Shown in pieces: positions 18,797-57,890 of a stretch of 64,000 bases of DNA. The DNA lies in assembly GCA_030549335.1 (NCBI GenBank), contig CM060195.1, forward strand, positions 49,447,975-49,511,974, written 5' to 3'. Position numbers and translations under genes: made by a program. Every line of letters starts with the position of its first letter. The stretch's first letter is position 1. A model generated the notes under the pieces. That model saw nothing but the letters and a program-made list of their open reading frames with translations, was not told where the DNA came from and did no database searches. The DNA is from Pontederia crassipes. Its lineage: Eukaryota; Streptophyta; Magnoliopsida; Commelinales; Pontederiaceae.

Positions 18797-21700
18797 CTAG
18801 GAGACACTTGGCCGGGTTGGCTCCTGAGAGATGGCTGGATCTAACCCATGATTATCACCAAGCTTGGCTATGACATCAGTGAGCTTGGAAAGCATGCTAG
18901 ACACTTCAGGGTGGCTCCAATGAGCTCCAACTCGTTCCATAAGAAATTTCCATCGGTGGTCACCGCAAAATGGAGTGATCTCTCGAGGGATTGGAGGAAT
19001 GAGAAATGGGTGTTGGAGCAGCTGTGGTATCCTCCACCTCTCATTGCGATCCCACGCAAGACATCTCTTCATGAGATCTATAAGCCAAGGGTTGGGCACT
19101 GGATCGTAAGAGATCTTGTGGTTTCGGTCTGTGACAACTTTAAACTTGGCCCAGAAAGTTTTGTACTCTGCAAAGGGCGTCTTACCATACACCATTTGGT
19201 ACAGGATGCAGCCAAGGGACCAGATATCTGATGGACGCCCACATTTGATAGTGTTTCCATTTGCATCATCTTCATTGCACATGAATGCTTCAGGTGACAT
19301 GTAATTCAATGTTCCCACCTGCAGACAATATAGCAATGTTTTCACCTGCTAAACTTCTGTTGGCCAAACAATGAAATATGTTGATCAAATATAGAACACC
19401 ATGAGAGAAAATTGAACCTGTGCATCGCGTTGAATGTTAGTTGTGTCACTCATTATAGCTTTAGCAATACCAAAATCAATAAGCTTGAGGGATCCTCTGA
19501 CAAGAAGGAAGTTGGCCGGTTTCAGATCAGAATGCACAATGCGTTCCTCATGTATGGTATTCACAGCCTCAAGCATTTGCTGCAGAAGCAAGAAAGGTGA
19601 TTTTTATGAAACATTAGAAAGTATAGGTGGATATGAATGAGACGAGTAGTAAGCCCATCCCAAAAAGTGTTAACCATTGGTTCGCATCAATGAAATTACT
19701 TAAGAAATTGGAGGAGCCACTTTGTCTAGTCATAATTGAAATTGTTTAATTACTGAAACCTACCATCGACCAAACAGATGTAGTCTATATGGCTGGTGAT
19801 TACTATCGCACCAGGATGGATAATGTGGATTTTTGCAAGAGAGCACATTGGAGCTAATGATCCAAGTACCACCTTCTAAACCTACCATCAACCGATCAAA
19901 TCTAATCTCTATGGATGATGTTTACCAACCCACCAGAGATTAACTCATCATAAAAGATGGATTATGTGGATTTATGAAAAATGCTTACCATCAGATGATA
20001 GATATTCAATGGCAAAGCAGACATCGACTTGCATAATACATATGTACCAACTACTGCATGAGTGCCAATGGTCTAATATTTATCTCTACATCTTAAAGAG
20101 TATGCCTGGTTAGTATTGATTTTATTTGCTGCAACAAGTTGTACAACAATTCAAGAACAAAATTGGAAAACAATTGATACATATTAAGAAGAATTGTATC
20201 ACTATTGTTTTTCCTTCACAAATTAAGTTCTTAAATTTCTTCAACCCCTGAGGGAAAAAACATAACGATCAGCTGTTTTCTGCAGGAAAGACAGTATAAG
20301 CAGAGCTATGGAATACCTGCCAATAAAATCGCAGCCAGTTTTCATCTATTTGAGAATTCGAAGAACTAATCTCCTTCCACTTTTGAGCAACCATATGGGC
20401 TAGATCAATTTCTCCATATTCAAGTACCATGTAAATGCATTCATCGTCTTTTATTCTCTTATCCTTCAAGGTCATGGAGCCACTAAGAACTTCGCGCAGC
20501 AACATTTTATCTGTCACCTGGAAACAGAGCTATCATATTAAGAAGCTAAGATCCTGAAACTATAGGTAATCTTCATATAGGGCATATATTAGCTATTCCC
20601 TAAAACTATAGGTTTTTTTAAAAAAATAGGAGAGAATGAGAGCCATGTGCACTCATCCATATTTATTAATATAACAATGTTACATCAAGATGTTGAAATA
20701 ATAATTACTACTCTTGCCCAGTCTCTCATCAAGCATCTAGACATAGATAAGATATTCAACATAACATCGTTCCCTCCTAAAAATGCATCCATTTCATTGG
20801 CACCGTATGGACCATAGGAAAGCCAATGACATTGCACGTCGACGCCTGAATACATAATATTGTTTGGTTCCTAATCTTTGGCGATAAGATATAGTGGTGG
20901 ACATGCTCAGGTCAAAATTTCAAACACAAAAACCTTAGCATATTTTTGCACAGTGCACTGCTCTTGAACATATGGGAAAATTACGCAGACCATGAGCATT
21001 GAATAATAGTTTGAATTCACTCACATATTATCACATTAAAAAGAATCATCATAAGACAGATTTAATTTGTACCTCATAGTCAACTAGTTGAATAATATTG
21101 CTCTTTCCTTTTAGCTTGTTGAGATACTCAATCTCTTGACAGAATCCATATGCAGTTGGATAGTCACGGCCTTTCAATTTGATTTTCTTCAAAGCATATA
21201 TAGTGCAATCAGATGAAATCACCTTATGAACTTCACTACTTCCTCCACTACCTATTTTACCAAGCTTTTGATAAAGCTTCCCATTGACATTAAAGAATAC
21301 ATCAGGGTCATATTTTTTCTTACGAGGAGCCTTCTCGACTTTGCTTTGTTGTGAAGGCCCTAAATCCCTTGTCGATGAAATATTATTCTTTGACAAAAGA
21401 AGTTCAGATGGCAAAGACCCAGCACCATCGAGAATGTCTTTGCCCTTTTTGTTTTCAGCCAAGTGCACATCATTTTGATGATGCTGACGCCATTCACTCT
21501 CTTTCAACATAGACCCATTTCCTTCTGCACAGTCATTATCTTGAATGCTCGTGTTCTCTCCAGCAAAGGATGACATTTGAGTGGCAAATGCAGTTTGTCC
21601 TGGTGGTGGAGCATGAGTGTGCTGTAATGTCTGACCGGTGTTAACTGAGAGTGTAGTGGCACATGAAGAGCCTATAGCTGAACCTCCAGTTGCTGGTGAC

Positions 21701-22855
21701 ACATAATGTTGGCTGTCAACTGTCTCTTTCCCGTTTCCTAACAAGTTAGACTCCTCCAATTTCAGTCCAGTCCTGGAAACATGTGCTTTTGCAATATCCT
21801 GCTCCTTAAATTCACGACCAGTTGTTGCCAGAGTTCCCAAGTAACTCTCCCCATCTGCAAAACAAGAGAATGCAAATAACAACAATTATTCTCCATGCTA
21901 CAAGTAGTCACGCATGTAAGAAGGGAGAAAAGATGGATAAATTAGAAATGCATAAAATTGCAACTGGACTAGAATGACCCATCTTTTCTCAAGCAATATT
22001 AAAAAAAAATTTACTTACTCTCGAATGTTAAATTAAACTTTTCCGAATTGCTGTCAGCATGTACTCGTGAGGCTATTGCTTGAAATGAAGGAACTGCTGC
22101 AGATGACCTTCCTTGTCCATCAGGAAGCAGAACAGCATCTTTTTGCATTCCGACAAGACTCAACTTCTCACCTATGCCTGAAGTTAAAGTACCAGAGATT
22201 GAAGGTGGGGTAAGCGAGGAATCCTCAAGAGGACCCGTCACTACTTCACTCACAAGTTCCTTCCTTTGTCCCGACGCAGCATTCGTCGTCGCCGCGGCTC
22301 CAGCTTGCCGCACCACCTTCCCGGTTTGGTTTCCAGATAGTGAAGGCAAAGAGGCGCTGCTCCTTGAGGGCTCGGTTTGGGAAACCAGCACACGGGTCGC
22401 CCGAAGAACATTAGACTGCATGGTACCTAAGATAATATAGCCATCAAAGAAACTGAATCAGTAACCCGAACGGCACTCAAGGACAGGGCCTCAAAACCCT
22501 AATTGCCACCTTAGTGAATTGGAATTCAGTTCAAATCTCAAAATAAAAATGAAGAAACGAGTTGCCCATCGGAAGGGAGGAATCCCTAGATTCCGCATCA
22601 AGCTGAGGAAGGACACAAGTAGATGGCAGGAGAAATAGAAAGGAAAAAAAGAAATTGGATCATCTCACCGAGGGGTCTATGTCGCTTGAACACGGCATGG
22701 GCCTGACGGAGGAAATCGGGGGGCGAGAAGGTGGCGGAGGAGGACGATGAAGAGGAGGACGAGGTAAGGTTGGCGTCGGCAACAGCGGCGGCGGCGAAAG
22801 GACGGGCGGGATTGAGCGGAGCCGTGGGAGTGGGAAGGTCAGCCTTCCGATCCAT
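18797..22855 (-). CDS. MPS1: MPS1/TTK-type dual-specificity protein kinase, complete
   Basis: Spindle-assembly checkpoint kinase acting at kinetochores in this family. Six exons keep frame and give 753 residues: 22669-22855, 22019-22426, 21073-21854, 20317-20517, 19418-19579, 18797-19318. The long N-terminus is low-complexity (poly-Ser near residues 31-39). The kinase domain runs from about residue 392: glycine loop [11 protein letters not shown] (397-407), ATP-binding lysine 421, hinge [13 protein letters not shown], catalytic loop [12 protein letters not shown] (Asp 544), DFGIAKA (Asp 561), activation segment with [20 protein letters not shown], and [23 protein letters not shown] in place of HRD is normal for MPS1. 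All catalytic residues are present and I see no break. Remnants of exons 2 and 3 occur at 35165-36040 and of exon 2 at 42690-42730. Confidence 0.96.
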
Positions 22856-23639
22856 AGCGCAGGACGGCTCCGGCGGAGGAAGCCAACGGCATTTCGGCGG
22901 CGCTGGAGGAGATCGGAGATCAGAGCATCGGAAAGAAGAGGGGAGGAGCGTGCGGCAGGCGGCGGCGAGGCGGAGAAGAGCGAAGTGATTTGAAAAGAAA
23001 CATAATTGGCGCTCGCTCGCGATGTTACTCGCCAGATGCGTAGTTCGTGGAAGCGGTAAGTAATACGGTACCTAGACACGTGCGCGCCTTATGTGGTGGG
23101 GTCCATCGTCCATGTGATACGTTTTCAGAGTGGTGCGCTGAAGCACGTAATTTTTCACACGGGGCGCGCGCTTGGAGACGAATTTAGCTGATCACCGAGA
23201 TTATAAAATAGCAAAAAATATTATCGGAAGAGATTAATTTTTAAAAACATCGAACATTTTCGGAAAGAATTTTTTAACATTGCTCTCGATCAATAAAAAA
23301 GAATTTTTGAAAATGTTGATCATTTCCGATCGGTGAAAACTGAATATTAATCAAATGATAATATTTTTTAACGTTGCTCTCGATCAATTAAAAAGGTTTT
23401 GCATTGGAAAACATAATTTGATTATTTAAAAAAAGGTTCCCAAAACTTAATCTGACATTATTAAAAAAATCAAGAAGCTTAAATTAAACTTATTTTCTTA
23501 TTTCTTCACTAATTTTTCACATCTAATTCTAAAATATATTTTTACATCTGACTCCAATGTAAAAACATTACGATATCTTTAAACTTTGCCATATTTTTTA
23601 TTTTAATTATTTCATCTGATTCTCTTAATTTCTCCATAA

Positions 23640-24440
23640 TTTTATTGTTTTATTTGTGAAAAAGGCCACCCCCACGTAATAATTGAAATATATTTACTGT
23701 CTTTTAGTGTTTGAAAAAGAATAAAATATTAACAAATAATATAAAAAGTAAAAAATTAATCATCTTACCTTCTTGTTATTATAAACACAAAAATAGAAAA
23801 CATGTATTTCAATTATTACGTGAGGAGTGTATTTTAGTCTTTTCACAAATAAAAAATAACAAAAATAGTTAACAAAATCATGCAAAATGTAATAAAATTT
23901 AGGAATATAGTAAGTTACTTTCAAGTTAGATATGAAAAAATAACGATAATTTAGATTTTTAAAAAAGACACAATTATTGTTATTCTAAAAAATATTATTG
24001 TCATTCTATTTGTCTTACAAAAAAGAAAATGTTCAACACTTCAAACACACTGAAGTGATAATAATATATTTTTTTCAAGTGTCAATAGTGATGCCCTAAA
24101 GAAATAACCCTTAATTTTATGCTCAATTTGAATGCACTAAAATTTGCAATCTTCCGAAAAAATTACACAAGCTACAACTTACGTGCCCAAATAAAAGTAC
24201 ATTACAACATCTAGATTGCAAATCAGTTGACATAAAATTTTGTACAAATACCGTGTATGCATTTGAACTTTTTTGGGAGGATAGAAGCAAGTCTACATGA
24301 AGTGAATGTGATCATTAAATTAAGCGGCATACAAGTTGTACATGAGAACGTTGTTTGATTATTGACAGAAGCTTTGCCATTTCACAAAGCGTGTTTACGA
24401 TCCTCTACTGGATTAAAGTTTATAAGAAATTCAAGGAATT
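23640..24440 (-). pseudogene. Duplicated 3' flank and last codons of ASHR1
   Basis: This stretch aligns with 47540-48275, the region just downstream of the intact ASHR1 gene. Shared landmarks include GTGTTTGAAAAAGAA, GAAGTGAATGTGATCATTAA and ACAGAAGCTTTGCCATTTC. At about 24393-24430 it includes the ASHR1 stop region and a few final codons (GTGTTTACGATCCTCTACTG). The match ends there, so only the very end of the coding sequence was kept. It lies directly before the intact MPS1 gene, which supports a block duplication. Confidence 0.8.
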
Positions 24441-25644
24441 GGTAATAACATAAATTGAAGTATCACGGAATACCTTGCAAGGGAAAGAAGAATCATCGTA
24501 AACTTTTCACGTTGCTTTGGACTCGTTATCGAAAACTCAATCACAATGAAGGAGAACGCTTGTTCACAATCCAAAATATCGTTCTGGACAACGTCGAAAT
24601 CAGGAGAAAATGTGGCAGTGTGTCGGTGGTGTTGAAGCACTATACACTTACGACACCATCACACACATATATGTGTTGGTTTCATGTGTGCCTCGTAACT
24701 GCATGCAGTGTGCAAAAACTGCATTGCAATTTCTCATCACGTGTACAACATGCACACCCTTAGCCCATCAAAGGGCGTTGTGTCCAACAATCTTCCACCC
24801 GCACTTGATGGGCTTTTATCCATTTTTAATTTTTGTAAAGGTTCGTTATGATAAATGGATTGTACGACACACGAATACATTCACAACTTACGGAAAACTA
24901 TGACTTGTTAGGGATACATAGTTACCCAACTACTTGAAAACCTATACTATGACATGTTAGAAATACATAGTTGCTCGATCATTTTGAGAGCTAAAAGTTA
25001 TTATCACATAACTGCTCACTCATGCTATAATGTGTTATCATTGTATAGCTACTTAACTATCATGTGAGGCACTACTATGATTTATGATTAATACACAGTC
25101 GTTCAAACATCTATGTTATTCATTTTATCTTAAAAACACTTGCTTGCACACTCCAGACGAAGACATAATTGAGGATAGACTTTTGCTTATTAATATCGCT
25201 ATTCTAAGAAGCATTTATTTATTAAGCAAGTCTCTAAATCAATCTCCATTATCGCGCAAAATGAGAGTCGACATGCCCATATTCTCTTAATCATCAGTCA
25301 ATATAGGTGCCATGCATAAATACATAAATTTCTCATTTGACCAATGACACAAATATCAGACTACTCAACTTAGTGACCATGTTTACAAAAGGATATTTCC
25401 TTTTGTTACTCATGGAGTCTTAAAAAAATATTTCTTTTAATAAGGGTACTAGTGAGTATACAGTTCCTCGTAAAATGTTCAATTTGTCTTTATGATAGAT
25501 GACTCTTGCTATAAAATAATAAATTTATTTAAAAATTTTAAATTTCACACCAAGTGTGAGTAACTATCTCATCCATGTCATTAATACTTAAATATCATTT
25601 CTATAGGAAGACATTAATTCCATCACTCATAGAAGAAATCTCTT
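24441..25644. mobile_element. Probable degenerate LTR-retrotransposon sequence
   Basis: AT-rich non-coding DNA with wording typical of copia-type LTRs (for example CCAACAATCTTCCACCCGCA near 24785) and repeated phrases such as CATAGTTACCCAACTACTTG and its variant about 60 bp later. Clear ends are not visible. It is a fossil, interrupted at its right side by the solo LTR at 25650. Confidence 0.4.
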
Positions 25645-25649
25645 GTTAC

Positions 25650-26131
25650 TGATGGGAAAATCCGAGAACAAGGAGAGAAGATCGCAGAGAGATTGCAGAA
25701 AAATAGAGGAGACACACGAAATTTACCCAGGTTCACCCTTGAGATGAGGGCTACGTCCTGCAAAGAGGTTCCACTATATGTTTAGGTTTACAGCCGCCAC
25801 ACAAAATTACATCAGAAATTAGGATATTAATAGCCTCTCCAAACCGGGTTTAAAACCCAAACAAACAGAGAAAAAACCTAATCCGAACCACACGGGCCGG
25901 CTAAACAAAAGCCCAAAACCCGTCTAGGTTTCGGGGGCGCTGCCCCCGAACCCCCGCCCGCTCACCGGCGAGCCCAAAACCCGTCCGTCGGGGGGCGGGG
26001 CCCCCCGAACCCCCCTTTCGTTCGTACGTCAGCAATAATGTTAATTGGGTAATACTCAGATTCCCCTAAGCTCACGTGGACGAACCCGGTGTGAGAAACA
26101 AGGGGCCCTGAAGTATTCACCAACTCTAACA
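25650..26131. mobile_element. Solo LTR with 5-bp target duplication
   Basis: Fossil LTR of 482 bp starting TGATGGG and ending CTCTAACA, flanked by GTTAC at 25645-25649 and 26132-26136. It contains the phrase GATGAGGGCTACGTCCTGC, common in copia-type LTRs. No internal region adjoins. About 25930-26020 is GC-rich with palindromes such as GGGGGCGCTGCCCCC. It lies inside older LTR-like DNA that continues on both sides. Confidence 0.87.
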
Positions 26132-26136
26132 GTTAC

Positions 26137-27240
26137 TTCTATCTATACATAATATTGTTTCACATATAATGTCATGATGACATATTTATTCATAAAAATG
26201 AATATACATAATGATATTTATATCATTATTTAGATGAATACTAAATTCATAAATGAATCATCGCAAACTACATATTGCGCTCAATGCTTTTACATTTAAG
26301 CATTTAAAAAGTTTTATGTAAATTTCATCTAATACATATGTGAATCAATAGTTAGACTTTTGACGAACGAGAGAAAAAACATAATAATTTCTCTATAGTC
26401 AGCGCTCATTTTGTGAGTATTGCTTTTCGTTACTTTTAAATATCCTATCATCCATATCAACTTATTTTGAACGCTTGCCTTTCGGTAAGATGAATGATTT
26501 AACAAGTCCTTGATTTGATTTTCTTCTTTAAACTCTAACTATTTGCATTAATATATTTTTTTATCTAGGCCAAGAGAGTCACAATTACTTATTTTAGCCT
26601 TATGTTCATTTCATATAGTCATTCGACAATTGACAATGTGAAACACAACTCATATATTTCAATAAATGAACATTAATTATGAGTTTGCTCCCACTCGAAT
26701 TGAGGTGTGAAAAGAGAATATGGACGAATCACAAATTAATCTGCATATATTGTCAACTCTGAATTTTTAACCTTTAAAGTGAAAATGTCAATCTCGTTTA
26801 GCCAAGAAAATATATGAATGTCATGTCTCTACTTATTATCTCAGTATTTATGTAGCATTAACAACAACATTCCAAATATAATATTGGAAATTAATTTGCG
26901 CCACACATTCAAGTAAATTATGGTTTTATCATATTCACTTTTATAATTGAGAATTATAGTTAGTCGCATAAATATATAATTTCATCACTAGGATGAAAGA
27001 AACCATCCTTGCACTCGAAAATTTAAGTTTGCAAAAAGTTAAAAAAAGTAAAATATAAAACTCGTTGCAAAATCAGAAACATAATCCAAATATCAAAATG
27101 ATGGAAAAGAGGAGTAAAATTTGCCGCTGAACACAAGTAAGTAAGTGATGTTAGATTTAATTTTTAATGACATATAAAATTATATTTTAATTATACAAAC
27201 CTCGAAAGATTAAAGTTAAAATGCTGAAAAAATTTGATTA
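26137..27240. other. AT-rich DNA: continuation of older element, then outlying array unit
   Basis: 26137-26970 looks like the continuation of the LTR-like sequence interrupted by the solo LTR. About 26990-27155 repeats wording of the 28-33 kb array (CTTGCACTCGAAAATTTAAG, GAACACAAGTAAGTAAGTGA), so one outlying array fragment lies here. No coding region was seen. Confidence 0.5.
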
Positions 27241-28165
27241 AAAAGGGATAACTTTATGCACTACACTTTGATTAAAAAATTAACTATGATGCTATTAGAT
27301 TTTGGATGAATCATAAATATAGCGATTGTAGAGAATTCTGTTAGCTTTCCATAGAATAAAAAATCATATCATTTGGATAACTGTGCAAAACATTATGCTT
27401 AAAATAATGCAGGGCGGTCGACATGCCGGCTTGAAAATCGATTAGTGCAAAAAATGCCCAATTTCAACAAACAAAATGACGGTCGACCGGACAGTGCAAA
27501 ATTTGTCAACGATCATATTTTTCATAAAAGAATATGTACTAGTCGACTAACCTCTGAGTTAACTAAACAATAACGAATAAATTTGAAAGAGAATTTTGTG
27601 GAATAATTTCTGGACGAAATTTTCACATCCTAAAGCCTATAAAAGGAGTGTCAAAGCAAGAAGCAAAAGCATTGTCCAAATCTTGAAAAAAAAACTTCAA
27701 GTTATCAAAAGAAGATCATTCTTTGAAGTTTTCTCTTCTTTCTCTCTCTTGTGAGCTTAGCATTGTAAAAGAGAAAAATATTTTATTTATAAAAATAATG
27801 AGAGAGCTCCTATGTAAAAGATGTTCATTAGAGAAGATGTGTGCCTTATCTCTCGAAGTGGAGAAGGGCGGTGGTGTAAAAAGCTTTTCTTCCTTGCCTC
27901 ATTTGGAACAAGGGAAGAAGAAATCTCCAGCGATCTCGAGGTCGAGAAGTCGGAGCGGGAACGTAAACCAAGGTGTGACTGAATTTCGTCAACAACCATT
28001 ACGTGATTTGTGATTGTTTTCTTTCTCTTCTTCTCATATTGGTTTTGATATGATCTGAATTGCATTGATTTAAAAAATTTTAAGAATTGATTTCAAGCTT
28101 TCACAATGATTATTATGAATTCGATACTTTTGTTTGAACATCAATTCACCCCATCTAAACAAAAA
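27241..28165 (+). mobile_element. Probable LTR fossil (copia-type) within the array
   Basis: The sequence has an LTR-like layout: repeated GTCGAC motifs (27415-27545), a TATA-like box CCTATAAAAGGAG near 27641, a leader with ATTGTAAAAGAG, and an end phrase CATCAATTCACCCC. Array-type sequence lies on both sides, suggesting it inserted into the array. Neither target repeats nor exact ends could be fixed. The 96-codon frame at 27723-28013 falls inside and is not supported as a gene. Confidence 0.45.
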
Positions 28166-30124
28166 AGAAACAAAAAACAACATTACATGCAATGATTAAT
28201 ATTGTACGAGAGAGATCGCGCATTCATTTAATTCACAATGACAATAAAACAAATAGTGATATGTCAAGAAACTTTAGGTTGTAAGAACTAAAAAAACATT
28301 AAGAAACAAAAGAATGAGAGTCTGTAATTCATAGGATGGAAAAGAGGAGATCAATAAATGGTTCAAATGTGTTTCCTCCCTCTTTGCAATCGAAAACTTT
28401 GATTTGCAAGAAGTGAAAAAAAATAAAATACATAAAATTCGTTGCAAAATTAGAAACCGAATCAAAAGCTCAAAATGATGGAAAAGAGGAATAAAATTCG
28501 TCACTGAACATAAGTAAGTAAGTGAAATTTGTCATTAGAAAAAAATGGTCATAGGAAACTTACGGTGTAGGAATCTAAAAAAACATCACGAAATAAGAGG
28601 AGAGTCCCTAACTCAAAGAATGGAATAGAGGAGGAGCTCAAAAAATGGTTTCGGAGTCCTCATCATTGCAATAAAATACTTAAGTTTGCAAAAAATAAAA
28701 TAAAACTCGAATGAACAACCTCCATTGTTCCACTCGAAAAAGCTAAAAAGAAAATATAAAAAATGTGGCAATTCATATGAGAAGTCCTTTGCTTTCCAAT
28801 GTGGAAAAATGAGAAAATAGAAGGTGAAGTAACTTATTTTCCTTAATCTAGTGCTGTTCAACACCGGTTTGTTGTTTTCCTTCAATACTGCCTTCAAATC
28901 CTTCAGCACTAGAATAAGCAGTGCTTGTGCAATTTTGAGTATAGTTTTTTTGTGCGAGCCCGGAGATGATGGAGGGAAGAGTAGAGATGCTATGAAGGAG
29001 ATTGCTTCGAGGTGGTGGTTTGAGAGACTGAGCAGATGGTGATGGTTCGAGAGACGAGAGGAAAACAAAAGCAAAAGTAAGTGATTTGAGAGGGAGGTAG
29101 GAACATTCACTTAAGAGATATTATTATTATTATTTTGAATAAAAAAATCTAAAGAAAGAAGAAAAAAAAACAAAAAACATTACATGCAATGCATAATATT
29201 GTATAAGAGAGAGAGCATTAGTCTAATTCACAATGACAATAAAACAAATTGTGATATGTCAAGAAATTTTAAGTTGTAAAAAATAAAAAAAAAACATTAA
29301 GAAACAAAAGTAGGAGAGTCCGTAACTCAAAGGATGGAAAAGAAGATATCAAGAAATGATTCAAATATGTTTCCTCCATTTTTGCACTAAAAAACTTTGG
29401 TTTGTAAGAAATTAAAAAAGTAAAATATAAATAATAAAACTCGTTGCAAATTAGAAATAGAATCCAAAGCTCAAAATAATGGAAAAGAGGAGTAAAATTT
29501 GTCACTGAACACAAGTAAGGAAGTGAAACTTGTCATTAGAAAAAAAATGATCTTAGAAAACTTATGATGCAGGAACCTAAAAAAACATTACAAAATATGC
29601 GGAGAGTCCCTAACTCAAAGAATGAAAAAGAAGAGGAGCTTAAGAAATGGTTATGGTGTCTCCATCCTTGCACTCGAAAACTTAAGTTTGCAAAAAACTA
29701 AAAAAAATAAAATAAAACTCGGATGAATAACCTCCATCATTGCACTCGAAAAAGCTAAAAAGAAAATATAAAAAAACATGGAAATTCACAGGAAAAGTCC
29801 GTTGTTTGCAACATGAAAAAAGGAGAAAAGAGAAGGTGAAGTACCTCATTTTCCTTGATCCTATGCCGTTCAACACCGGCTTGTTGTGTTTTTTTCAATA
29901 TTGCCTTCAAATCGCACCAGAATAGGCATTGCTCATGTGATTTTGAGTATAGTTTTCGAGCGTGAATCCGGAAGTGGTGGAGGGAAGAGCAAAGATGCTA
30001 CATATGACATTGCTAAGAGAGTGGTGGTTTGAGAGACTATGCAGAGGATGATAGTTTGATAGATGAGAGAAAAAAAACAAAAGTAAGTAATTTGATAGAG
30101 AGGGAGGGATAATCACTTAACATA

Positions 30125-30158
<34 letters not shown>

Positions 30159-30846: not shown

Positions 30847-30913
<67 letters not shown>

Positions 30914-31571: not shown

Positions 31572-31602
<31 letters not shown>

Positions 31603-31640
31603 TTGAATCAAAAAATCTAACAAAAAACAAAAAAATGCTA
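28166..31640 (-). repeat. Tandem array of partial SufC-like gene copies
   Basis: Four diverged units repeat here (about 28170-29140, 29170-30160, 30180-30915, 30930-31605), followed by the fullest copy at 32030-33655. Each carries the phrases TTCACAATGACAA and AAACAAATAGTGATATGTCA, or close variants, and each ends at an ATT microsatellite. Exon-like parts on the minus strand recur: exon A at about 28840-28985 and 29850-29970 (DLKAVLKENNK wording), exons C/D at 30445-30687 and 31195-31428 (SGDLMYKIVDGI, SFQTNNHRKLFGDFSFFEFL). No single unit holds all exons. Function of the array is unknown. Confidence 0.8.
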
Positions 31641-35160: not shown

Positions 35161-35164
35161 ATTT

Positions 35165-46739: not shown

Positions 46740-47214
46740 ATCTAAAAACGTATTCTACGATCTCCGCGCGGCAGGGAGGGCCCCTCCTTCCCTTCGCCGC
46801 ACGGTGCAAGGGTGGGGGGTCGCCCCCTTCCTGCAACCTCCGGCGAGATTGTAGGGAGGGGGCGCCCCCTCCCCCCTCCCCTCCTTCCCTTCGTCGTGCG
46901 GCGCCCCCCAACCCTTGCGCGCGTGGCGCAGGGAAGGAAGGGGGCGACCCTCCGATGACACATGATCATTTTTTAATTATTTTTTTATCTATTATTATAT
47001 ATTATTTTATGTAAAAATGAACTAAGATTCGAATTATGGGTATAATGGACTTTTCATAAATGTAAAAAATAAAAAATAATGAAGAAATTAACGGAATTGG
47101 ACGGAATGATCAAATTGGAAAAATCATGATAATTTCTAAAAAAGCGAAGTTCGTAATTTGAAGTTAGATATGGAAAATTGCGATAGTTTAGGGATGATAG
47201 GAGAAAATAATTCA
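46740..47214. other. GC-rich palindromic tract and MITE-like end
   Basis: 46745-46960 is an island of G and C runs with palindromes such as GGGGGCGCCCCC, in contrast to AT-rich DNA on both sides. 46965-47214 looks like one long end of a Mutator-type MITE (phrases GAAAAATCATGATAATTTC and AGTTTAGGGATGATAGG resemble 1481-1530). Open frames across the GC-rich part are composition artefacts. Confidence 0.5.
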
Positions 47215-47530
47215 AGAAAATTTGAAATGGTCGATCATGGTCTTCGTGAAGCAAAATAGTAATTGCTTTGAAACCCTGTAACTGTCATTGCTTTCCAGTG
47301 TAGCAAGTTAATAGAAAGAATCTGTGTCACAGCTCAAACGCATCATAGGAATAAATAGCTCAAAACCATGTATGTAGAGTTTAGACAAAATGAGTTCAGC
47401 AACGTGTTGTCATCCCTTTCTATCAGAAGAAACCTTGTAAAGCTGGATTTTAAAAACTATTCTCATTGGCATCCATGGAGAGAGAAATTAGCATTGGTAC
47501 CAAATTAGCCGTTGCCTGTAAATGCCATAT
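47215..47530 (-). pseudogene. FBN3 remnant, exon 4/intron 4 part
   Basis: The sequence resumes the FBN3 copy interrupted at 43196. It matches 36745-36910 (GTCGATCATGG, GCTTTGAAACCCTGTAACTG, GATTTTAAAAACTATTCTCA) and then the start of exon 4 near 37055-37085 (ACCAAATTAGCCGTTGCCTG). Most of exon 4 is missing, so this cannot be translated. Confidence 0.85.
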
Positions 47531-47638
47531 ATTTTAAACACCAAAATATAATTAAACACTAAAATAATTGAAATATATTTATTATCTTTTAGTGTTTGAA
47601 AAAGAAAAAAAATATAATCCTCTTCATCATAGTTGAAC

Positions 47639-47688
<50 letters not shown>

Positions 47689-48229
47689 AACGCTAAAATA
47701 TAACTCATATTTTAATTATTACGTGATGAGTGCATTTTAGTCTTTTCACAAATAACAAAAATAACAAAAGAAAAGTTAACAAAATCATGAAAAAATTTAA
47801 ATGCAAAAAAACATGATAATTTTGCAAAGATTTTACAAAAAGAACACCACTATTATCATTCCATTTGTCTTACAAAGATAAAAATGTTGAACACTTTAAA
47901 CACTGACACGATAAAGTCACCATAATATTTTTTGAAATGTCAATAGAGGTGCCCTAAAAAAATAACCACTAAATTTATGCCCAAATTAAATGAACTAAAA
48001 TTTGCAATCTTCCGACCAAAAAAGAACACAAGCTGCAACTTACGTACCCAAATAAAAGTACATTGCAGCATCTAAATTGCAAATTAATTTACATCAATTT
48101 TTGTACAAATACCGTGTATGTATTCGAACCTTTCCGGTGGGAGAAGCAAGTCTACATGAAGTGAATGTGATCATTAAAGAAAGTTGCTAGATTATTGACA
48201 GAAGCTTTGCCATTTCACAAGTAGCGTGT
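47531..48229. other. ASHR1 downstream region, partner of 23640-24395
   Basis: Non-coding DNA between the FBN3 remnant and the ASHR1 stop codon. It contains an ATT microsatellite at 47638-47687 and is duplicated beside MPS1 at 23640-24395. It probably carries the 3' untranslated region of ASHR1. Confidence 0.6.
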
Positions 48230-51200
48230 TTACGATCCTCTACTGGATGAAGGTTTATAAGAAACCTCAACACGGGCTTCTTCCAACTGGTTCAGGAGCT
48301 CTTTCATGAAAGGTGTACCAGTCCCGTGCGTGATTCGAAGAATATCCGTCGCCTTGCGGAATGATTCAAAGGCGTCCTCTGTCAGTTCGAGTAACCTGAT
48401 AGATCAAATATGATACAGTAAGAAACAGTGGCAAAGAGGTTTTCTATTTAAATCTGAAAGCAACAAGATCAATAATGAGTTCCAGAAGGTTTGAATTATG
48501 CACGGGCAATTAGTAGATTCTTGGAATGTCATGCGTTCTTTTCTAGTTCTGGTGAGACTGCTATGCGAAACTTAATTCATGGTGCAATGTTAATTGCGTC
48601 AGCTGAAGCAATATTTATCTTATTGTGATTACCATTCGAGTTTCCCACAGGTATAAAACTGAAGTCCAAGCATTGGATGAATTGCTGGGTAGATTCCTGC
48701 ATTTAGGAAGAAGATGTTAAACACAATTTTGAACTGTATTGAAAGGGCAGCATAACTGCTCAGTGCGACCAATCAGAATGCAGAAGCTAATGATCATATT
48801 CTTCAATCCTTTCCATATTATGATTGTAGAACTTATGTTTTCTGGTTCACAGATAAGAATCCATGTTTTCTTCATGCATCAAACTTACAAAGACATAATT
48901 GAATTTCACAACCTATATTGACCACTACTAGAAAAACAAATGAATGCTTTGCATACTCTGATAAACTGGAATAGTTGAACGGCAATATGTCAAGGCACCA
49001 TCCCAATCTTGCAGCTCCATGAGAATCTGTAAAAAGTATCAAAAACATTATTCCTATTAGATAATGGATACAATCAAAAGAAACAAAAAAAACATGGGAA
49101 CGATTGTTGCAGACTTGCAGATACAAAATAGGACGCACGCTGCCTCTGCACAATAGTTGAAGATATAAAATAGGACACTTATGCAAATGCGCAGATTAAT
49201 GTAAAATCATATATTTATGTAATCAACATACCTTCAGTAGAGTCTCTCGGGTTCGTAGTAAATCAAGGGAGTATGGATGACAGAGCTGAAGCTGGAGCCG
49301 TTCAACATTTTTATACATACAATTTGCATCAGAAAGATCTAATTCTAGTCAAGGAGAAAAATTATGACAAAACAATTTTAACATAGTGTATTACATTAAT
49401 GATACAAAAGGAAATAGACCAAAATGTTTAAATCGCACGGTAATCAGGATACTGCCTCTGGACAGAAAACTTGAAGCTTTTTCTAATTGCTGTGCTACTT
49501 CAATGGAAAGCGCTTTGACTTCTTGTTCATCCCTAGTAAGGCCACATTGCTGGCATGTGAACATTTTCTGTCCTGTACAAGAAAATACAATGAAACAGAT
49601 AATGAGTACAGACGTGTGTGCTTGTTATACAAGAGAGCAAGAACAATCCTGATAGGAGTTTATGCCTTACTGCCTTAACTTACTAGAATCCAGAAGCAAC
49701 AAACCAATACACTTCTTGTCCTTACATCCATAGCCTTCCAAAATAGCAGTTGCATGGAGTTCATCATTTGGATCCTTAAACAAACGAGCATGATATTTTA
49801 AAGAAAAGAACATTGCGGACAGCTGCCGTGAAACAAGGGAAAAACAGAAAATGATCAAGTAACAATATCTGCAACAGAAACCTTTGAGCATTGCAGACAT
49901 CTGCATGTGAAGAAATACTGTTTGAGATCCTTCTGCCTTGTTTTAGTGGGTGCTGCAGTTTCTATATAACTAATCAAGATCTGAGAGACAAAATCCATAA
50001 GGTCAGATCTCCTACAAAGAAGATTATGTAATAGTTTAAATTAATAACTGGTGGAATAAACATAAGATAAAAGGAAAAAGACCATACCTCAGTACCTTTA
50101 GCTATAGGTTCTAAAGCACGCACAACAGCTATTCTACCCTCAAATACCAGAACTGAATTGGGGGAACAACTAAGTTCCAGATGCAGAACAAGAAAATCAT
50201 TCAGAAAAGTACGAAAATGAATTATTAGATGATAGCAAATTGTGACAACAATTGTCACATAGTATCTACCTGTGATTAATGGTAGAGATGACAGGATACA
50301 ATCCAGTCCCCAGCGGTCTGAGTTCACTATCACAGATACTATGAGCATTACAAGCCAGCTGCATCATATTAGAACAGGACCAATTAATGGAAGCAAAAAG
50401 TCTGTAAAGTTCCTAATGACATTAAGTTCTTTAAAACTAAAACCCTGTGTTTGATCATCACAAAGACAATAATCAACGAAAGCCAAACAGAAAGTTACAT
50501 AAGGAAGATGTGAATTGAGAATAACCACAAATAAGAAACCATAAAACATATGAAATAGCAATGGTGCATGCTACACCATGATAAACGGGTAATCTCAAGA
50601 ATTTTGGGAACCACGGCTTCACCAAGAACATGATTTAATCACAAGATATGAAAAGGAAACCCAACATTTAATTGGATCGAAAGGTACAAATATCCTGTGA
50701 CCTTAATGATATTGGATGATTCAATCTTCTATAACATGTTCAAGGAGCTTATGCTGACCATACCAAATGTATCAGCTAGATTAAGTATGAAAAGGAAGAA
50801 AAGATAGCAAAGCTATTATCAATTTTTATGAGATGACACCAAACTAACCTTGGAGAAATTGCATGTGACTTCCTTGATATTAATCTCCAGAGTAGGAAGA
50901 ACCAGCTTAACTAAATTAGCCATCTGGGCATAAAGCACCAGCTGTTTCTCATCAATGTCAGAAATATCTTAATGTGTTGTCTATCAAACAAAGGTGAAAT
51001 GGGAAATCCAATGTTTATCATCTAAAATCACAAGTACATTGAAGGATACGAGACTCTAGTGCCTCCACCAATTCATAGTTATCCATTGCAGTAGTGGGGA
51101 ATACCTTGCATTGGAAAAAGAATTGGTTAAACTATATCATCTGAATTATACCGTCTGGACTGGTGGGAGTAGCCAAATAGCACCCTGCTAGCATTCTCCC

Positions 51201-52281
51201 AAAAGAGACCTAATTCAGGATTAGAAAATAGCAAAAAAGCATGATCTAGCATCAAAAGTTAAACAAGGAACTCAGTCAAAAACAAGAAGACATCCCGTAA
51301 ATGCTCCATCAATTAGAAAATGCACAAAGGTTTCAAGATTGTTATCTTATTCCTTTTGAGAAGGTGTTATGCTCTATGTTAACTAAATGCTATAAAAAAA
51401 TAATGTAATACATGTGTGGTAACAATGCAATACGCACAAACTTCTGTTTTAGCACAATATCAAAATTGCATATAGCAACATAATCAAATATGTAATTAGA
51501 ATGAAGATATACAAGAAGATGGGTAACAAATATTGTTTTAGGAAAAAGAAAAAGCAGTCGGACAAGAATGGTGGAACAACAATGCAATAAAACTTCTCTC
51601 AGAAAAAAAATGCAAAAAAACTCACCTGATCATTCTGCAGTTTTTTTCTCAGTATAAGTCTCACCATTAGGCGTATAGTGGGAGTCAGCATTCTTTTCCT
51701 ATCCTCCGTAAGCGCTCCAAGTGCTCGGCATTCAAACTGATGTAGTTTCCATTCTGATTTCTAGCAATAAACCAATTTTGGTAGATATGAGGCACTATAA
51801 TCCTAACAAGTTTTCTAAGGTAGACATTTTCATTTTTTAAAATTACAATTTCCGGATTGCGGAAGGCACGTGGAAAACCACCTGTTCCCGTGTCGAGATG
51901 ATGCAAATAACGGAAATCGCATAACGAGAATTATATACCTGGCATGCACTCCCGCAATACCAAGCGACCTGGCAACCTGAGCACTTCTTCAAGTTCTTTG
52001 AGGTGAAGCACCCATCGCAGCTCGTCCCATGGTTCAGTTTGCTGGGAGCGGAGGCGTAAGGCTCCTGCAAAATTATCACATCACCTGCAGTAACATATGA
52101 CACAAGGCTCTCAAAGACACATACAATCAAACACATAAGAGTCATGCCAAATCAACGCTGCAGAGCACCAACCGGGCGAGAAGTCGCGCGTTGCGACGAG
52201 GCCACGACCCTTGTCCGCGATGGATTCAACTGTCAGGCCGCGTGCCGAGAGCGCACTCCGTAGCGCTTCGGTCAATTCCAT
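48230..52281 (-). CDS. ASHR1: ASHR1-type SET and MYND domain lysine methyltransferase, complete
   Basis: SMYD-like protein expected to methylate lysine using S-adenosylmethionine; substrate unknown. Fourteen exons keep frame and give 483 residues, against about 480 in Arabidopsis: 52173-52281, 51939-52084, 51626-51760, 51050-51104, 50849-50967, 50270-50358, 50088-50169, 49882-49980, 49684-49774, 49453-49572, 49232-49338, 48957-49026, 48633-48696, 48230-48395. The split SET domain opens with DKGRGLVATRDF; the MYND zinc finger follows (CDGCFTSKNLKKCSGCQ, then YCGSACQKSEWKLHQFEC). The cofactor motif NHSCSPN (216-222) spans an intron; ISYIET carries the catalytic-type tyrosine 250; post-SET cysteines CRCLQC lie at 271-276. 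The C-terminal half is helical, TPR-like. No break is visible. A 3' remnant lies at 23640-24440 and a 5' remnant at 55225-57190. Confidence 0.96.
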
Positions 52282-52289: not shown

Positions 52290-53970
52290 CCCTCCCGCAG
52301 TCCCGCTACCCTCGGATGCCAAATATAAAATGATGCTGGAGTGAGGGTTTAAAGAGACGTTTTATAACGACCGTTATTTTGGATCACATCTGATGTTACG
52401 ACACGATGTATCAGTTAACATGAATTGGATGACAAACCACTAAAAATTTTGTAAGTCGAAAGGAAAAAAGATAACGCAATCGAATACTTTTGATCTCTGA
52501 TGATAGCCATAGACTTCACGTAAGAGCTGAAAATGATTGAAAAGCCCAATAAAAGCACAAAAAAAAACATAAAAAAAAAACTTCAATTCAATTTATCGAA
52601 AAAATTCTTCAATTCATAACAATGGAAACCTTTCAGAGTAGAACGGATGTGCTGCGGTGGAGAATCGAGAGCTCGGGACAACAGCTTCTCACCGTAGCAA
52701 AGCTTCTCATGGTAGCAGCTCCGAATGTTGTCAAACACGTAAAACAGACACGACATGAAGGGCCGGGAAAAAACATAAATCGCGAACACTAAACACGGCA
52801 TGGCGGATTCTACCAGATTATTTTTAAAATATATTAATTAGCACAAAACTGAATATAATATTATAATAAAGCAAAATTTTCATCAAGTTATCAAATATTT
52901 AGCAACATGTCAAAGGATCAATACCAAATTCCAAATTACCAAAACTAAAATAAGTTTTAACATCCAAGTCATGAAAATTCAGAATAACAAAACATCATAT
53001 GATGCATCAAGAGACAAGTTCTATCAAAATAAGGAACACTAGCACTATCGAAATACCTAAATCTGTGACTGTAACACTAACACATTTCTAACATTCTATT
53101 ATCTATAGTCTATACATACAATACAAGCATACAGTAATCAGAACCTAATTCAAACCTAACTAAACATGCACTTATATAATCCTAATTTCTAACTTAAAGT
53201 TTTGAACATGAAAAAACTCGACCGGCCTCCCAGCTGCATTGGGCGAGCCGGGAGACCTCGCGCCTCCCTGCTCGTGAGCAGGAAGACCCCGGCGCCTCCC
53301 TGTTCGCGAGCGCAGGGAGACCCCGACGCCTCCCTGCTCGTGAGCGCAGGGAGACCTCGGCGCTCCCTGCTCGTGAGCAGGGAAGCACCGAGAGGTGCCG
53401 AGGTCCGCATTCCTCGCGCGAGGAGGGAGGGAGACAACAGCAAGAGAAGGAGCAGACTAGCGACAGAACAGAACGGCGCCAGAAAAAGAATGGGTGCGAC
53501 AGAAAAAGAACGGCGGGGAGTACCGACGATTCACGGCGAAAGGTAGCAATGGAAGGCAGCAAGACGGCTGGAAAACACGGCGGCACGCGGCTGCAACACA
53601 CGGCGGCAGGCGGCAACAACCGGCGGCAGGCGGCAGGCGGCGGCGGGCGGCGGCAAGCCTCGGCGGTAGGCGGAGGTAACTAGGGTATCGTCGTTTTTTT
53701 CTTTCTTATTCCACGCCACTAGTGCGTCCAGCGATCCCACGATCGAGCACGCGATAGCCGGAAACGAACCAGATTAGGATCGAAATGCAGATCGTAAAAT
53801 CGTACGTTCTTGGGACGCGATTTTGACAATCAGAGCTCCGACGATGGTGAGGCTCGACGATGGAATATGGACTGATTTGCGAATTTTGTAGATAATGATT
53901 TGGCTAAGTAATAGAGTAGTTAATTAATAACTATTATTTTAATAATTAATTTAATAAAAAGGATTCACCA
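52290..53970. other. Intergenic DNA with GC-rich repeats, possibly an LTR fossil
   Basis: 52290-53200 is AT-rich and non-coding. 53215-53420 holds about four imperfect tandem units of roughly 34 bp containing the palindrome CTCCCTGCTCGTGAGCAGGG. 53560-53675 is a GGCGGCAGGC-type run. This layout, followed by AT-rich DNA, resembles a GC-rich LTR but I could not find ends. Frames here are composition artefacts. Confidence 0.5.
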
Positions 53971-53974
53971 GATA

Positions 53975-55224
53975 CGACTCCGGAACTTCCGACGATCCAA
54001 ACCGACGGTAATCGAAAAAATAATTAAATATTATAATCTTATATATTATAATAAATAATATAATTAGTATTTTATTATTATAATTATCGACAGTTCTAAC
54101 CGTCGAAAGTTGACGGTCCGAAACGTAAATTATAATATTTAATTATTTTTATGTTAAAGTAAAAATATTATTCTATTATTACATTTCCTAGCTCTGAAAA
54201 TCGTAGGTATTGAAAAAATTATCCCACCACCCTCCCCACCTTTTTTTTTTCTTTTCCCGCTCCCCACTTTCTTTTTCCCCACTATTTATAACCAACCTCC
54301 TTCTCTCTCTAATTCTCTACCTCTTTCTCTCTCTCGGACGATGATCGAAGGATGACCTCCGCGACCCCCCTCTCTCTCGCCCGTGGCCGATCGGTGACCC
54401 CTTCTCTCTCTCCCTCGTGCGCGGTGACGGCCTGATTCGGCCGCACCCTAATATCATATGTAACATTCCCCACTAACGTGTAATATTGTTCGCTCTGGGC
54501 CTAAGCCCACACGATTTTTTCAAAACGCGTCATATTATGCCAAGATAATATTCTCATATATACCCAGCATCTCTCACGTGACTTATGCATGTAGGACTAA
54601 TTCAACATAAGTCATGAAAGAAATGCTGAGTATATATGGCAATATGTCCTTCACGAGGTGTGACGCGTTTTGGTAAAATCATGCGGGTCGAGGTCCAAAG
54701 CGAACAATATCACACGCTAATGGGGAATGTTACATATGATATCAGAGCCACTCCGCGTGGATCTATGTGCATAGTGGGGTGCGATCACTCTACGAGGGCG
54801 TTGAGTCACTAAGGGGAAAGGGTGCATGAAGATACCTTGGATTAGTTCAACATGCATAAGTTACGAGAGAGATGCTAGGTATATATGGGAATATGTCCTT
54901 CACCAGGTGTGACGCATTTTGATAAAACTATGCGTGTCGAGGTCCAGAGCGGACAATATCACACGCTAGTGAGGAATGTTATACACCGCGCCGCAATCGT
55001 CTGAAACTTCAGACGACTACAACCGTCTGAACTACCGACGGTTGGCAACCGTCGAAAATTTTTGACGGGTACGGCTGTCGAAACTTTTGACGATTGCCCG
55101 TCGGAAAAGTGTTTGCGATGAGCAATTTTCCAACATATCATATTCGTCTAAAACTTCATTTTTTGACGGATTTTGTAAAATTTGCGACGGTCGTAACCGT
55201 CTGAAAAGTCGATTTTTTTTAGTG
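53975..55224. mobile_element. CACTA element, non-autonomous, left end unresolved, with nested TRIM-like element
   Basis: The right end reads TTTTTAGTG at 55216-55224 and is followed by TTT. Subterminal motifs of the form CCGACGG or CGTCGAAA recur in both flanks (53990-54130 and 55000-55210), as in the CACTA element at 58392. The left terminus was not found. A TRIM-like element at about 54459-54990 interrupts it. Confidence 0.7.
54459..54990 (+). mobile_element. TRIM-like small LTR element with inverted LTR arm
   Basis: Fossil of the LTR family without coding capacity. Three copies of one segment of about 135-165 bp occur: inverted at 54451-54590, direct at 54595-54734 and direct at 54826-54990. 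After the second comes TGATATCAGAGCC, close to the primer-binding site for initiator methionine tRNA, and a purine tract (AAGGGGAAAGGG, about 54812) precedes the third. This suits a terminal-repeat retrotransposon in miniature whose left LTR was rearranged into a hairpin. Confidence 0.62.
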
Positions 55225-57190
55225 TTTGAAAAGGGGTTATGCTCTACGTTAATTAAATACTATAAAAAATATAATGTAATACATGAGCGTTAAAAATGCA
55301 ATATGCACAAACTTCTGTTTTAGCACAATATCAAAATTGCATATATCAACATAGTCATATTTGTAATTAGAATGAAGATATACAAGAAGATGGGTAACAA
55401 GTATTGTATTAGGAAAAAGAAAAAGCAGTTGCAGAAGAATGGTGGACCAACAATGCAATAAAACTTCTCCCTGAAAAAAATGCAAAAAGATAAAAAAAAA
55501 ACTCATCATTAGGTGTACAGTGGGAGTCAGCATTCTTTTTCCTATCCTCTATAAGCGCTCCAAATGCTCAGCATTTAGGGTAAATTACACGAATGGTCCC
55601 TCAACTTTTAATCGATTTCTAATTGGTGCGCCAATTTCAATTTATAATCAGAACGTCATCCATCTTTCATTTTCTTATATGCTTAGTCCTCCTGACCGAT
55701 GACACAAGTTTCCAGGTTGCCTTGCTTACGTGACCGACTTTCTCTCTCATCCATATCAGCTTAAGTCGATCACATTATTATAAAAATTTTAAAAAATAAA
55801 AAAATGAGATTGTCCATGCCATTTTAAAAATAAAAAAAAGTGAATTGCGAGAGAGAGAGGGAGGACTGGTCAAGCTCGACCGGACCTCTCTCTCGTCGTG
55901 CGGGAGAGAGAAGGAGGGGGGCGATCGCCCCCCTCCGATCGAGCTTGTCGGAGCTCGGGGGCAGTCTCCCCCCTCCCTCTCTCTCGTCGTGCGGGAGAGA
56001 GAAGGAGGGGGCGATCGCTCCTCCCTCTCTCTCCCGCGCCTCCGGTCGAGCTCGACCGGAGGGGATGGTCACCCCCCTCCCTCTCTCTCGCCGTGCTAGA
56101 GAGAGAAGGTCGCCCCCTCCCTCTCTCTCGCCGTGCAGAATAGAAAAGAAGGGGGTGACCACTCCTTCCCTCTCACTCCCGTGCGTGTGGGAGAGAGAGG
56201 GAGGGGGGCGATCCCTTTTCTCTCCAGCACGATGAGAGAGAGGTAGGGGGGCGACCGCCCCCCTCTCGCCGGAGCTCGACCATAGGGGGCGGTCGCCCCC
56301 CTCCTCTATCCAGCACGTCGAGAGAGAGAGAGGGGACCACCCCCTCCTTCTCTCTCCCGCACGGTGAGAGAGAGGTCCAGTCGAGCTCCGGCGAGCTCGA
56401 CCAGAGGGGGGCGGTCGCCCCCCTCCCTCTCTCTTTCGTAACTCACTTTTTTTAATTTTTTAATAATGTGGACAAACTCATCTTTTTTTTATTTTTATAA
56501 TGACGTGGCCGACTTAAACTGACGTGGATGAGAGAGAAAGTCGGCCACGTAAGTAAGGTAATCGAAAATCTGTGATCATCGGTCAGGAGGACTAAGCGTG
56601 TAAAAAAATGAAAGATGGATGACGTTCTGCTTATAAATTAAAGTTGGAGGACCGATTGGAAATCGACAAAATTGTGGATCATTCGTGTAATTTATCCCGG
56701 CATTCAAATTGATGTAACTTCTTCTAATTTCTAACAATAAACCAATTTTGGTAGATATGAGGCATTATAATCCTAACAAGTCCTCTACGGTAGAAATTTT
56801 TATTTTTTTAAAATTACAATTTTCGAATTACCAATTCCTACTGCATCAAAAATCGGAAGGAACGTGGAAAACCATATCGAGAATTTTATACCTGGCATGC
56901 GCTCCCGTAATGCCTAGCAACCTGAGCACTTCAAGTTCTTCGAGGTGAAGCACCCATTGCAACTCATCCCACGGTTCAGTTTGTTGGGACTGGAAGCACG
57001 CCTCCTGCGAAATTATAACATCACATGCAGTAACATACGACACAAGGCTCTCATATACACATACAATCAAACACATAAAAGTCATGCCGAATCAATGTCG
57101 TAGAGCACCAACACGGCGAGAAGTCATGCGTCGCGATGAGGCCACGACCCTTGTCCGCGATGGATTCCACTGTTAGGCCACGTGTCGAAA
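55225..57190 (-). pseudogene. ASHR1 5' remnant (exons 1-3), interrupted by a Mutator-type element
   Basis: 55228-55577 matches ASHR1 intron 3 and part of exon 3 (51355-51735; GTTATGCTCTA, CAAACTTCTGTTTTAGCACA). After the insertion at 55578-56697, the copy resumes at 56699 with the rest of exon 3, exon 2 (about 56890-57010) and exon 1 (about 57105-57190). Small deletions and changes make it non-coding (for example, the MYND region is shortened). It ends before the ATG equivalent. Confidence 0.9.
55578..56697. mobile_element. Mutator-type element with GC-rich core inside ASHR1 remnant
   Basis: Inverted ends of about 150 bp (GGGTAAATTACACGAATGG on the left, its reverse on the right, and CAGGAGGACTAAGC inside) enclose about 600 bp of CTCTC and GGGGCGATCGCCCC-type runs. 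Because the intact ASHR1 gene gives the empty site, the insertion point is clear: flanks CAGCATTTA (55569-55577) and CGGCATTCA (56698-56706) match at 7 of 9 positions, a decayed 9-bp duplication. No transposase is present. Confidence 0.85.
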
Positions 57191-57289
57191 TCACACACTT
57201 TGTCCGTTATTTTTTAGTCTCAACCAACTCATGAACCGTTTTAAGTCCCGAATATCAGTCCGACTAGCCGAGTCAAATCTGACAACACT

Positions 57290-57890
57290 GATTTTTTCAT
57301 CTACGGGTTGGTATATATTTGTCGCAGCTCACAACTTTTTTTTTCAATGCCTGGTTGTATTAGTTGTCTAGGTTTCATGCTTTTGCGGTTTCAAAAGTTT
57401 AATCTTATCATTTGTTATTGTGGCATTCTTATGATATTTTGGTTCTTCTAAATATTCTAATTGGAATAGATGAAAAAGATTTTAAGGAACTAGATGATAG
57501 GACAGAGACTTAACTTGGCAATGAATTGCAAACTAATTAAGAGTCTTGTAATCATGTGAAAAAAAGAGATAATAGAGAAGGAGATCTATAAAGCGGACTC
57601 TAAGATCATCATTTATCACCATCTTCATCTTCTCATGCATCAAAAAGCTACTAAGATCTTTAGTGACACTTAATGCCTCCATCGATCTAAAAAGAGGAAA
57701 ATAATAATATGAGTAATGAAATCAATAATAAACTCAACTAATAACAAGTTTCTTACCATAACATGAATCTGAGTTGGGATGATGGGGATGTGCTCAAATA
57801 TTGCTCCCTTGCCATATATTATTAAGATAGAATTGTTGTTTTCTTTCATATTCTTGACTTCATTTTTCACTCTCATCCAATCTTATTTCA
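57290..57890 (-). pseudogene. SufC-like exon remnant
   Basis: On the minus strand an exon-like segment at about 57772-57870 reads NSILIIYGKGAIFEHIPI, then PTQIHVM before a GTAAGAAA donor. This matches the last part of block F of the SufC-like relic (IYELIPTKVHIM). A following short segment near 57660-57680 reads DGGIKCH and stop, matching block G. The switch histidine of SufC is again absent. The upstream exons were not found. Confidence 0.68.

Follow-up and report, generated by a model that had tools for sequence, protein, structure and literature searches.

Tandem copies of a gene run, most of them decayed, at a locus of Pontederia crassipes

Tandem gene clusters undergo birth-and-death evolution via unequal recombination, and after whole-genome duplication fractionation leaves one copy per gene, kept in different duplicates. 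The locus considered here lies in a window of 64,000 nucleotides from Pontederia crassipes (the whole stretch analysed; C13:49447975-49511974, in contig CM060195.1 of assembly GCA_030549335.1; genome 1.13 Gb, 43 contigs), in which pieces of an MPS1/TTK-type kinase gene (MPS1, M), a plastid fibrillin gene (FBN3, F), an ASHR1/SMYD-type SET-MYND gene (ASHR1, A) and a SufC-like gene (S) recur. It is a clear case of an ordinary process, the tandem copying of a run of genes with most copies decayed. Unlike in birth-and-death clusters, the repeated unit seems to take in several unrelated genes, three of which have one open copy each, "open" being defined from sequence as conserved exons without internal stops. 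As in whole-genome fractionation, one copy per gene is kept in different repeats, but here the copies are tandem, occupy ~40 kb and appear to stem from several rounds with intervening decay, and their survival lies within chance. Tandem copies with chimeric junctions, as seen at this locus, are described for maize P1-wr (PMC2686159), and gain and loss that differ between homeologous regions, as they do between C13 and its sister chromosome C14, for the wheat prolamin and R-gene regions (PMC5974169). Gene-fragment capture by Pack-MULEs and Helitrons (PMC1947982) has a parallel in some dispersed gene fragments elsewhere in this genome, whereas the repeats in the window retain introns, flanks and the M-F order. 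Among the papers found in literature searches on this locus, as far as their excerpts go, none was recognised as treating it. The locus is a small case where common junctions let copying and loss be ordered.

Along the plus strand the fragments, every one of them on the minus strand, read M-A-S / M-F-S / M-F-A / A-S (Table 1), and MPS1 is open only in repeat 1, FBN3 only in repeat 2 and ASHR1 only in repeat 3. The recurrence in one order and the single open copies had been described in the original prediction and both hold, as do, by self-BLAST, all five fragment pairs that it listed, an MPS1 scrap of ~40 bp included: 23678-24429/47563-48264 (72%), 36050-36498/42736-43190 (88%), 36753-37087/47214-47529 (three pieces, 89-96%), 41727-41857 plus 42351-42656/57281-57761 (77-83%) and 51355-52256/55225-57196 (two pieces, 80-83%). 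Further self-matches join MPS1 21567-22344 to 35167-36037 (three pieces, 73-91%) and lie within the SufC-like array at 28153-32796. When 18.0-58.5 kb was compared with itself, the counterpart of the dot plot of 18-58 kb proposed earlier, 44 of the 48 off-diagonal matches at E<=1e-5 were direct, many of them within the SufC-like array; none of 20 first-order random sequences gave such a match. With fragments assigned to repeats by hand and the array counted once, the 11 fragments on C13 form four ascending runs, which random orders reach in 0.4% of cases (1.9% without the MPS1 scrap), and this supports a block structure. The copies stand head to tail in one order and strand, as in tandem segmental duplication (more weakly so on C14 alone, see below), and contain introns and intergenic DNA: ASHR1 51726-52256 spans introns and FBN3 36050-36498 spans 3' flank.

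Some of the fragments are less than their first labels implied. The "ASHR1 end" of repeat 1 is a real match, but it consists almost solely of 3' untranslated region (UTR) and flank, with at most ~10 codons by position and no protein-level match. In the pair at 35996/42700 the MPS1 part is a scrap of ~40 bp of one exon, and the match at 42.7-43.2 kb is mostly FBN3 3' flank plus last exon. The FBN3 pieces at 47.2-47.5 kb are real, two of them probably intronic and one exonic.

References for this locus are available inside one genome, namely a sister chromosome plus two older duplicate regions. A 601-bp FBN3 query identified counterparts on C14 (94%), C9 (73%) and C10 (72%) in a genome search, and 70 kb were taken from each, that of C14 as reverse complement (coordinates c14r). 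MPS1 distances under the Kimura two-parameter model (K2P) are 0.029 and 0.037 within the close pairs C13/C14 and C9/C10 and 0.27-0.30 between the pairs, which could represent homeologs, or else haplotypes that have diverged strongly. From 3.3 kb onward, much of the window has collinear counterparts in C14:4.33-4.40 Mb (orthologous pieces 81-97%), and collinearity with C14 extends 6 kb beyond its right end; no C14 counterpart was found of window ~25.0-27.0, 43.2-47.5 and 53.0-57.2 kb. The set of open genes on C14 is identical and at matching places, and most of the remnants are present as well. In FastTree trees the C13 and C14 copies pair within repeats (support 0.89 and 0.84 for segment A3end, 0.97 for A3long, 0.999 for S3a), with which K2P distances mostly agree. 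Because C13 and C14 keep identical open copies, the sorting of these copies was complete before the two split. Genuine later decay exists too, since the sisters retain different remnants: the repeat-4 ASHR1 5' remnant and the repeat-3 FBN3 remnant were not found on C14 (nhmmer, E<=1e-3), nor did nhmmer find in the window the repeat-3 SufC body (c14r 52931-53559) or an additional MPS1 remnant (c14r 33589-35676). Adjacent genes are F-A in repeat 3 and A-S in repeat 4 on C13, and A-S in repeat 3 on C14.

Alignment reveals a common junction in repeats 2 and 3, where an internal MPS1 exon stands beside FBN3 3' flank. From the MPS1 exon piece to the last FBN3 exon it is ~0.37 kb in repeat 2 and ~2.0 kb in C9, and the simplest reading is that one deletion would have made the M-F junction before repeats 2 and 3 separated. 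As both carry this fusion, MPS1 would already have been broken before the repeat 2/3 duplication, and copying would have alternated with decay over at least two rounds. K2P distances between repeats are 0.09-0.13 for FBN3, 0.11-0.16 for ASHR1, 0.12-0.17 for the SufC 3' end, 0.19 (C14) and 0.30 (C13) for MPS1 and 0.31-0.37 for the SufC body; decayed segments differ between C13 and C14 mostly by 0.05-0.08. This fits an order in which the SufC body and MPS1 are oldest, followed by ASHR1, the SufC 3' end and FBN3, and then by the C13/C14 split. Homogeneity of F, A3, A5 and S3 was rejected (p=0.006), a difference not leaned on alone, the segments being short and some including exons constrained in one copy; MPS1 (C14) against those four pooled gave p=0.01. 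Indels caused misalignment of the MAFFT segments F3int and M_b2a (between-repeat K2P 0.48-0.50), and BLAST-chained alignments took their place; in these, ASHR1 5' is 51726-52256 only and FBN3 is without a 45-bp exon piece. Segment S3b, which is short (121-133 sites), stands outside the quoted ranges (0.20-0.25 between repeats, 0.195 and 0.08 between C13 and C14). Tandem duplication followed by decay, as first proposed, thus stands in so far as the copies are DNA-level copies with introns, flanks, one order and one strand, but a single duplication round does not, given the common fusion and the non-uniform distances.

The best explanation, and in our judgement a probable one, is multi-round tandem duplication of a minus-strand M-F-A-S run with decay. 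It builds on four observations: a common order and strand, an M-F fusion present in both repeat 2 and repeat 3, identical open copies on the sister chromosome and unequal between-repeat distances. The C13/C14 ancestor would have carried a minus-strand run MPS1-FBN3-ASHR1-SufC-like, with ASHR1 and the SufC-like gene beside FBN3 before duplication, and two or more rounds of tandem copying, most likely through unequal recombination, would have multiplied it. Deletions and transposon insertions would have occurred between and after these rounds, leaving one open MPS1, FBN3 and ASHR1, by chance in three different repeats. Three singly kept genes fall in different repeats with a chance of 22% for three equal repeats or 38% for four, so the survival pattern is within chance, and the same pattern on C14 is one outcome, not two. 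Reciprocal survival as a sign of fractionation, which the original prediction had put forward, is therefore not upheld: there is no excess over random loss, M, F and A are each open in exactly one duplicate but no open SufC-like copy was found, and the fusion common to repeats 2 and 3 is most simply read as older than their separation, so that these duplicates would not have been complete at birth. The case is a caution that fractionation-like survival can come from chance and from copies already broken.

Several results weigh against this explanation. In no repeat do all four genes occur together, every remnant is less than full length, and nhmmer at E<=1e-3 detected no FBN3 in repeat 1, either on C13 or on C14. 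The order test on C14 alone is not significant (10 fragments in five runs, 12% of random orders), and the additional C14 MPS1 remnant is unexplained by four simple blocks. In the short A3end segment the C14 copy c14_b3 is closer to a copy at C13 11.35 Mb (0.048) than to the window copy w_b3 (0.059), contrary to the tree. As for the single-copy block expected in relatives, its M-F part is present in C9 and C10, where MPS1 adjoins FBN3 (~1.3 kb between matched parts), but neither ASHR1 nor SufC was detected in the 70 kb of either (nhmmer E<=1e-3; tblastn E<=0.05). Synteny continues on C9, because DNA like the gene beyond the sphingosine-1-phosphate (S1P) lyase gene of the right-hand flank (L040 7904-10000) lies ~14 kb past FBN3; between FBN3 and that gene no ASHR1, SufC or, by DNA search, S1P lyase was found. 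Loss of ASHR1, SufC and S1P lyase from C9/C10 may account for this, as may their gain on C13/C14.

Alternatively, the duplications could have been piecemeal and partial, with breakpoints inside genes, so that copies were broken at birth, complete four-gene repeats never existed and little decayed later. The truncation of every remnant and the FBN3 not found in repeat 1 would agree with this, as would an M-F fusion passed ready-made to repeats 2 and 3 and distances that vary among gene pairs. We nevertheless consider it unlikely, as order and strand are held over four C13 repeats (0.4% by chance) and different remnants are kept, the repeat-4 ASHR1 5' piece on C13 only and the repeat-3 SufC body on C14 only.

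Multi-round tandem copying with decay also has to be seen beside related sequence elsewhere, for which genome-search copies are lower bounds (best 40 of 325 ASHR1 candidates, 40 of 182 for MPS1, 40 of 4502 for a transposon-like sequence X described below and 13 of 487 for the SufC family). A second cluster holds the MPS1 5' half (C13:11333241-11335546), parts of ASHR1 (C13:11.339-11.560 Mb, C14:6.784 Mb) and SufC-like parts (C13:11.531-11.552 Mb, C14:6.792 Mb); a genome search (9 of 9 candidates scored) located no FBN3 there. Site patterns date its MPS1 before the C13/C14 split (14 vs 3 and 4 with C9, 17 vs 2 and 4 with C10). The ASHR1 copies at C13 11.35 and C14 6.78 Mb pair together (support 0.94 and 0.98), and site counts place them outside w_b3/c14_b3 (7 vs 1 and 5, 10 vs 1 and 5), as they do a C4 copy (12 vs 1 and 3), the ASHR1 counts being less clear than those of MPS1. 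The second cluster (C13 11.3-11.6 Mb, C14 6.8 Mb) thus appears to predate the split. ASHR1 3' sequence adjoins S1P-lyase-gene sequence at C13:11354613, C14:6784913 and C4:15475684; the contact is direct at C13 11.354 and C14 6.785 Mb, and a short repeat lies between at C4 15.475 Mb. The two clusters have the same orientation on C13 (11.3 vs 49.5 Mb) and mostly opposite orientation on C14 (4.36 vs 6.78 Mb), except for two short SufC-like pieces on the other strand at 6.7988 Mb, a difference as would result from inversion. It is possible, and offered tentatively, that the short four-gene run had turned into a hub of duplication by the time C13 and C14 separated, where tandem copying and loss alternated and left survivors over three repeats, and which seeded the second cluster and the ASHR1/S1P-lyase chimera at C13 11.35, C14 6.78 and C4 15.47 Mb, the clusters' relative orientation later differing between the sisters as by inversion.

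Delivery of the fragments by transposon-mediated capture (Helitron, Pack-MULE or similar) is very unlikely. Sequence X starts at the end of an ASHR1 match, ASHR1 fragments are scattered to C4, C12 and other places, and the ASHR1-3'/S1P-lyase combination occurs at three loci, but the fragments in the window have introns and flanks and retain the M-F neighbourhood order. FBN3 matches, moreover, are nearly confined to the window, C14 and the C9/C10 counterpart loci, apart from one 332-bp match of 67% (C9:17.615 Mb) and two short ones. Scattered processed retrocopies are more improbable still: one dispersed ASHR1 piece (C12:72714689-72715212; 99% and 96%) runs from exon 2 straight into exon 3 at the splice sites and continues into intron 3, as from a partly spliced transcript, but the window repeats keep introns, intergenic sequence and a common strand and order. 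Pieces related to the C12 piece lie at C13:49380595 and C13:39487191. An assembly artefact, conceivable in a region rich in repeats, has a negligible probability, because C14 has the same open copies and most remnants in the same arrangement, separately diverged (81-97% per piece), and the C13 copies differ by 8-25% in aligned M, F, A and S 3' pieces.

MPS1, FBN3 and ASHR1 are named as in the original prediction. Searches back these names at the level of the family but not of the exact orthologue: the kinase exons of MPS1 match TTK (PDB), those of ASHR1 match SET and MYND (Pfam) and SMYD2 (PDB), and those of FBN3 match PAP_fibrillin (Pfam). The SufC-like name is the weakest of the four. Among seven pieces compared with NCBIfam, one, the last exon (32110-32367), matched sufC (TIGR01978) at 24 bits, far under the family cut-off of 213, and one other at 0.077; two pieces had no Pfam family, nothing convincing was found in PDB, and no open copy was found. 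Exons on C15 and C16 match TIGR01978 at positions 43-116 and 158-220, better than those of the window (best 13 of 487), and we infer that these loci are a working SufC pair. By blastp without composition correction two C15 SufC open reading frames (ORFs) are 27-56% identical to SufC-like pieces in both the window and C14; joined, in tblastn at E<=0.05, they matched C14 pieces only and none in the window.

Table 1. Features of the four repeats, in window coordinates.
Feature	Position	Strand	Evidence
MPS1/TTK-type kinase gene, open, repeat 1	18800-23071	-	exon ORFs matched in C9, C10; gene matched in C14; PDB TTK 2e-68
ASHR1 3' UTR/flank remnant, repeat 1	23510-24429	-	self-BLAST 23678-24429 vs 47563-48264; nhmmer 23995-24429
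Transposon-like sequence X at broken ASHR1 edge	24430-26990	no strand	copies on many chromosomes; twice in C9
SufC-like pseudogene and tandem array of its parts, repeat 1	27003-33760	-	self-BLAST, nhmmer, TIGR01978 1.8e-5 for 32110-32367
MPS1 remnant, repeat 2, with its last piece joined to FBN3 3' flank	35166-36040	-	nhmmer 35166-35498, 35992-36040; junction alignment
FBN3 fibrillin gene, open, repeat 2	36414-40020	-	tblastn exons in window, C14, C9, C10; PF04755 4.3e-25
SufC-like 3' end remnant, repeat 2	41727-42656	-	self-BLAST, nhmmer
MPS1 exon scrap, repeat 3, with M-F fusion like repeat 2	42695-42737	-	alignment
Remnant of FBN3 last exon plus 3' flank, repeat 3	42734-43190	-	self-BLAST, nhmmer; K2P 0.134 to repeat 2
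Retroelement fragment, presumably Ty3-type, between FBN3 remnant pieces	45672-46178	-	Pfam SH3_Tf2-1 2e-20
FBN3 pieces, repeat 3: one exonic, two probably intronic	47214-47529	-	self-BLAST, nhmmer
ASHR1 SET-MYND gene, open, repeat 3	48230-52281	-	conserved exons and stop codon; Pfam, PDB
ASHR1 5' remnant, interrupted, repeat 4	55218-57198	-	nhmmer 55218-55577, 56696-57198
SufC-like 3' end remnant, repeat 4	57218-58400	-	nhmmer

The left part of the repeat-1 ASHR1 remnant matches dispersed, partly inverted repeats, and sequence X beside it contains a ~480-bp high-copy repeat (25650-26131). The presence of X in C9 had suggested a conserved gene, a reading dropped since X is repetitive, with copies on many chromosomes among the best 40 of 4502 candidates. 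The two sets of repeat-3 FBN3 remnants sit ~4 kb apart. Two nhmmer matches were taken as chance, one to FBN3 at 55767-56109 (11 bits), which lies in a simple internal repeat, and one to MPS1 at 1941-2059 on the plus strand (9.7 bits).

Just right of the window, on the plus strand, lies the S1P lyase gene (L040 ~160-6220; C13:49512134-49518194), with putative outer limits based in part on ORFs. Pieces from the 2.5-5.5 kb part of L040 match S1P lyase in PDB (1e-59); no Pfam family was found for any of six pieces of the right-hand flank, and the name is thus from PDB. A piece like the SufC 3' end (L040 817-1039) is probably inside its first intron. An oxysterol-binding-protein gene (3266-9167, minus strand; PF01237 1e-18), matched on C14 and C10, serves as left-hand synteny anchor. 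A repeat of ~165 bp at 909-1077, 1761-1925 and 18356-18524, present also in C9, C10, C14, L040 and the C15 SufC locus (L041), looks like a high-copy miniature inverted-repeat transposable element. The window further contains a (GA)36 microsatellite at 17980-18051 and a GC-rich minisatellite stretch at 53243-53680.

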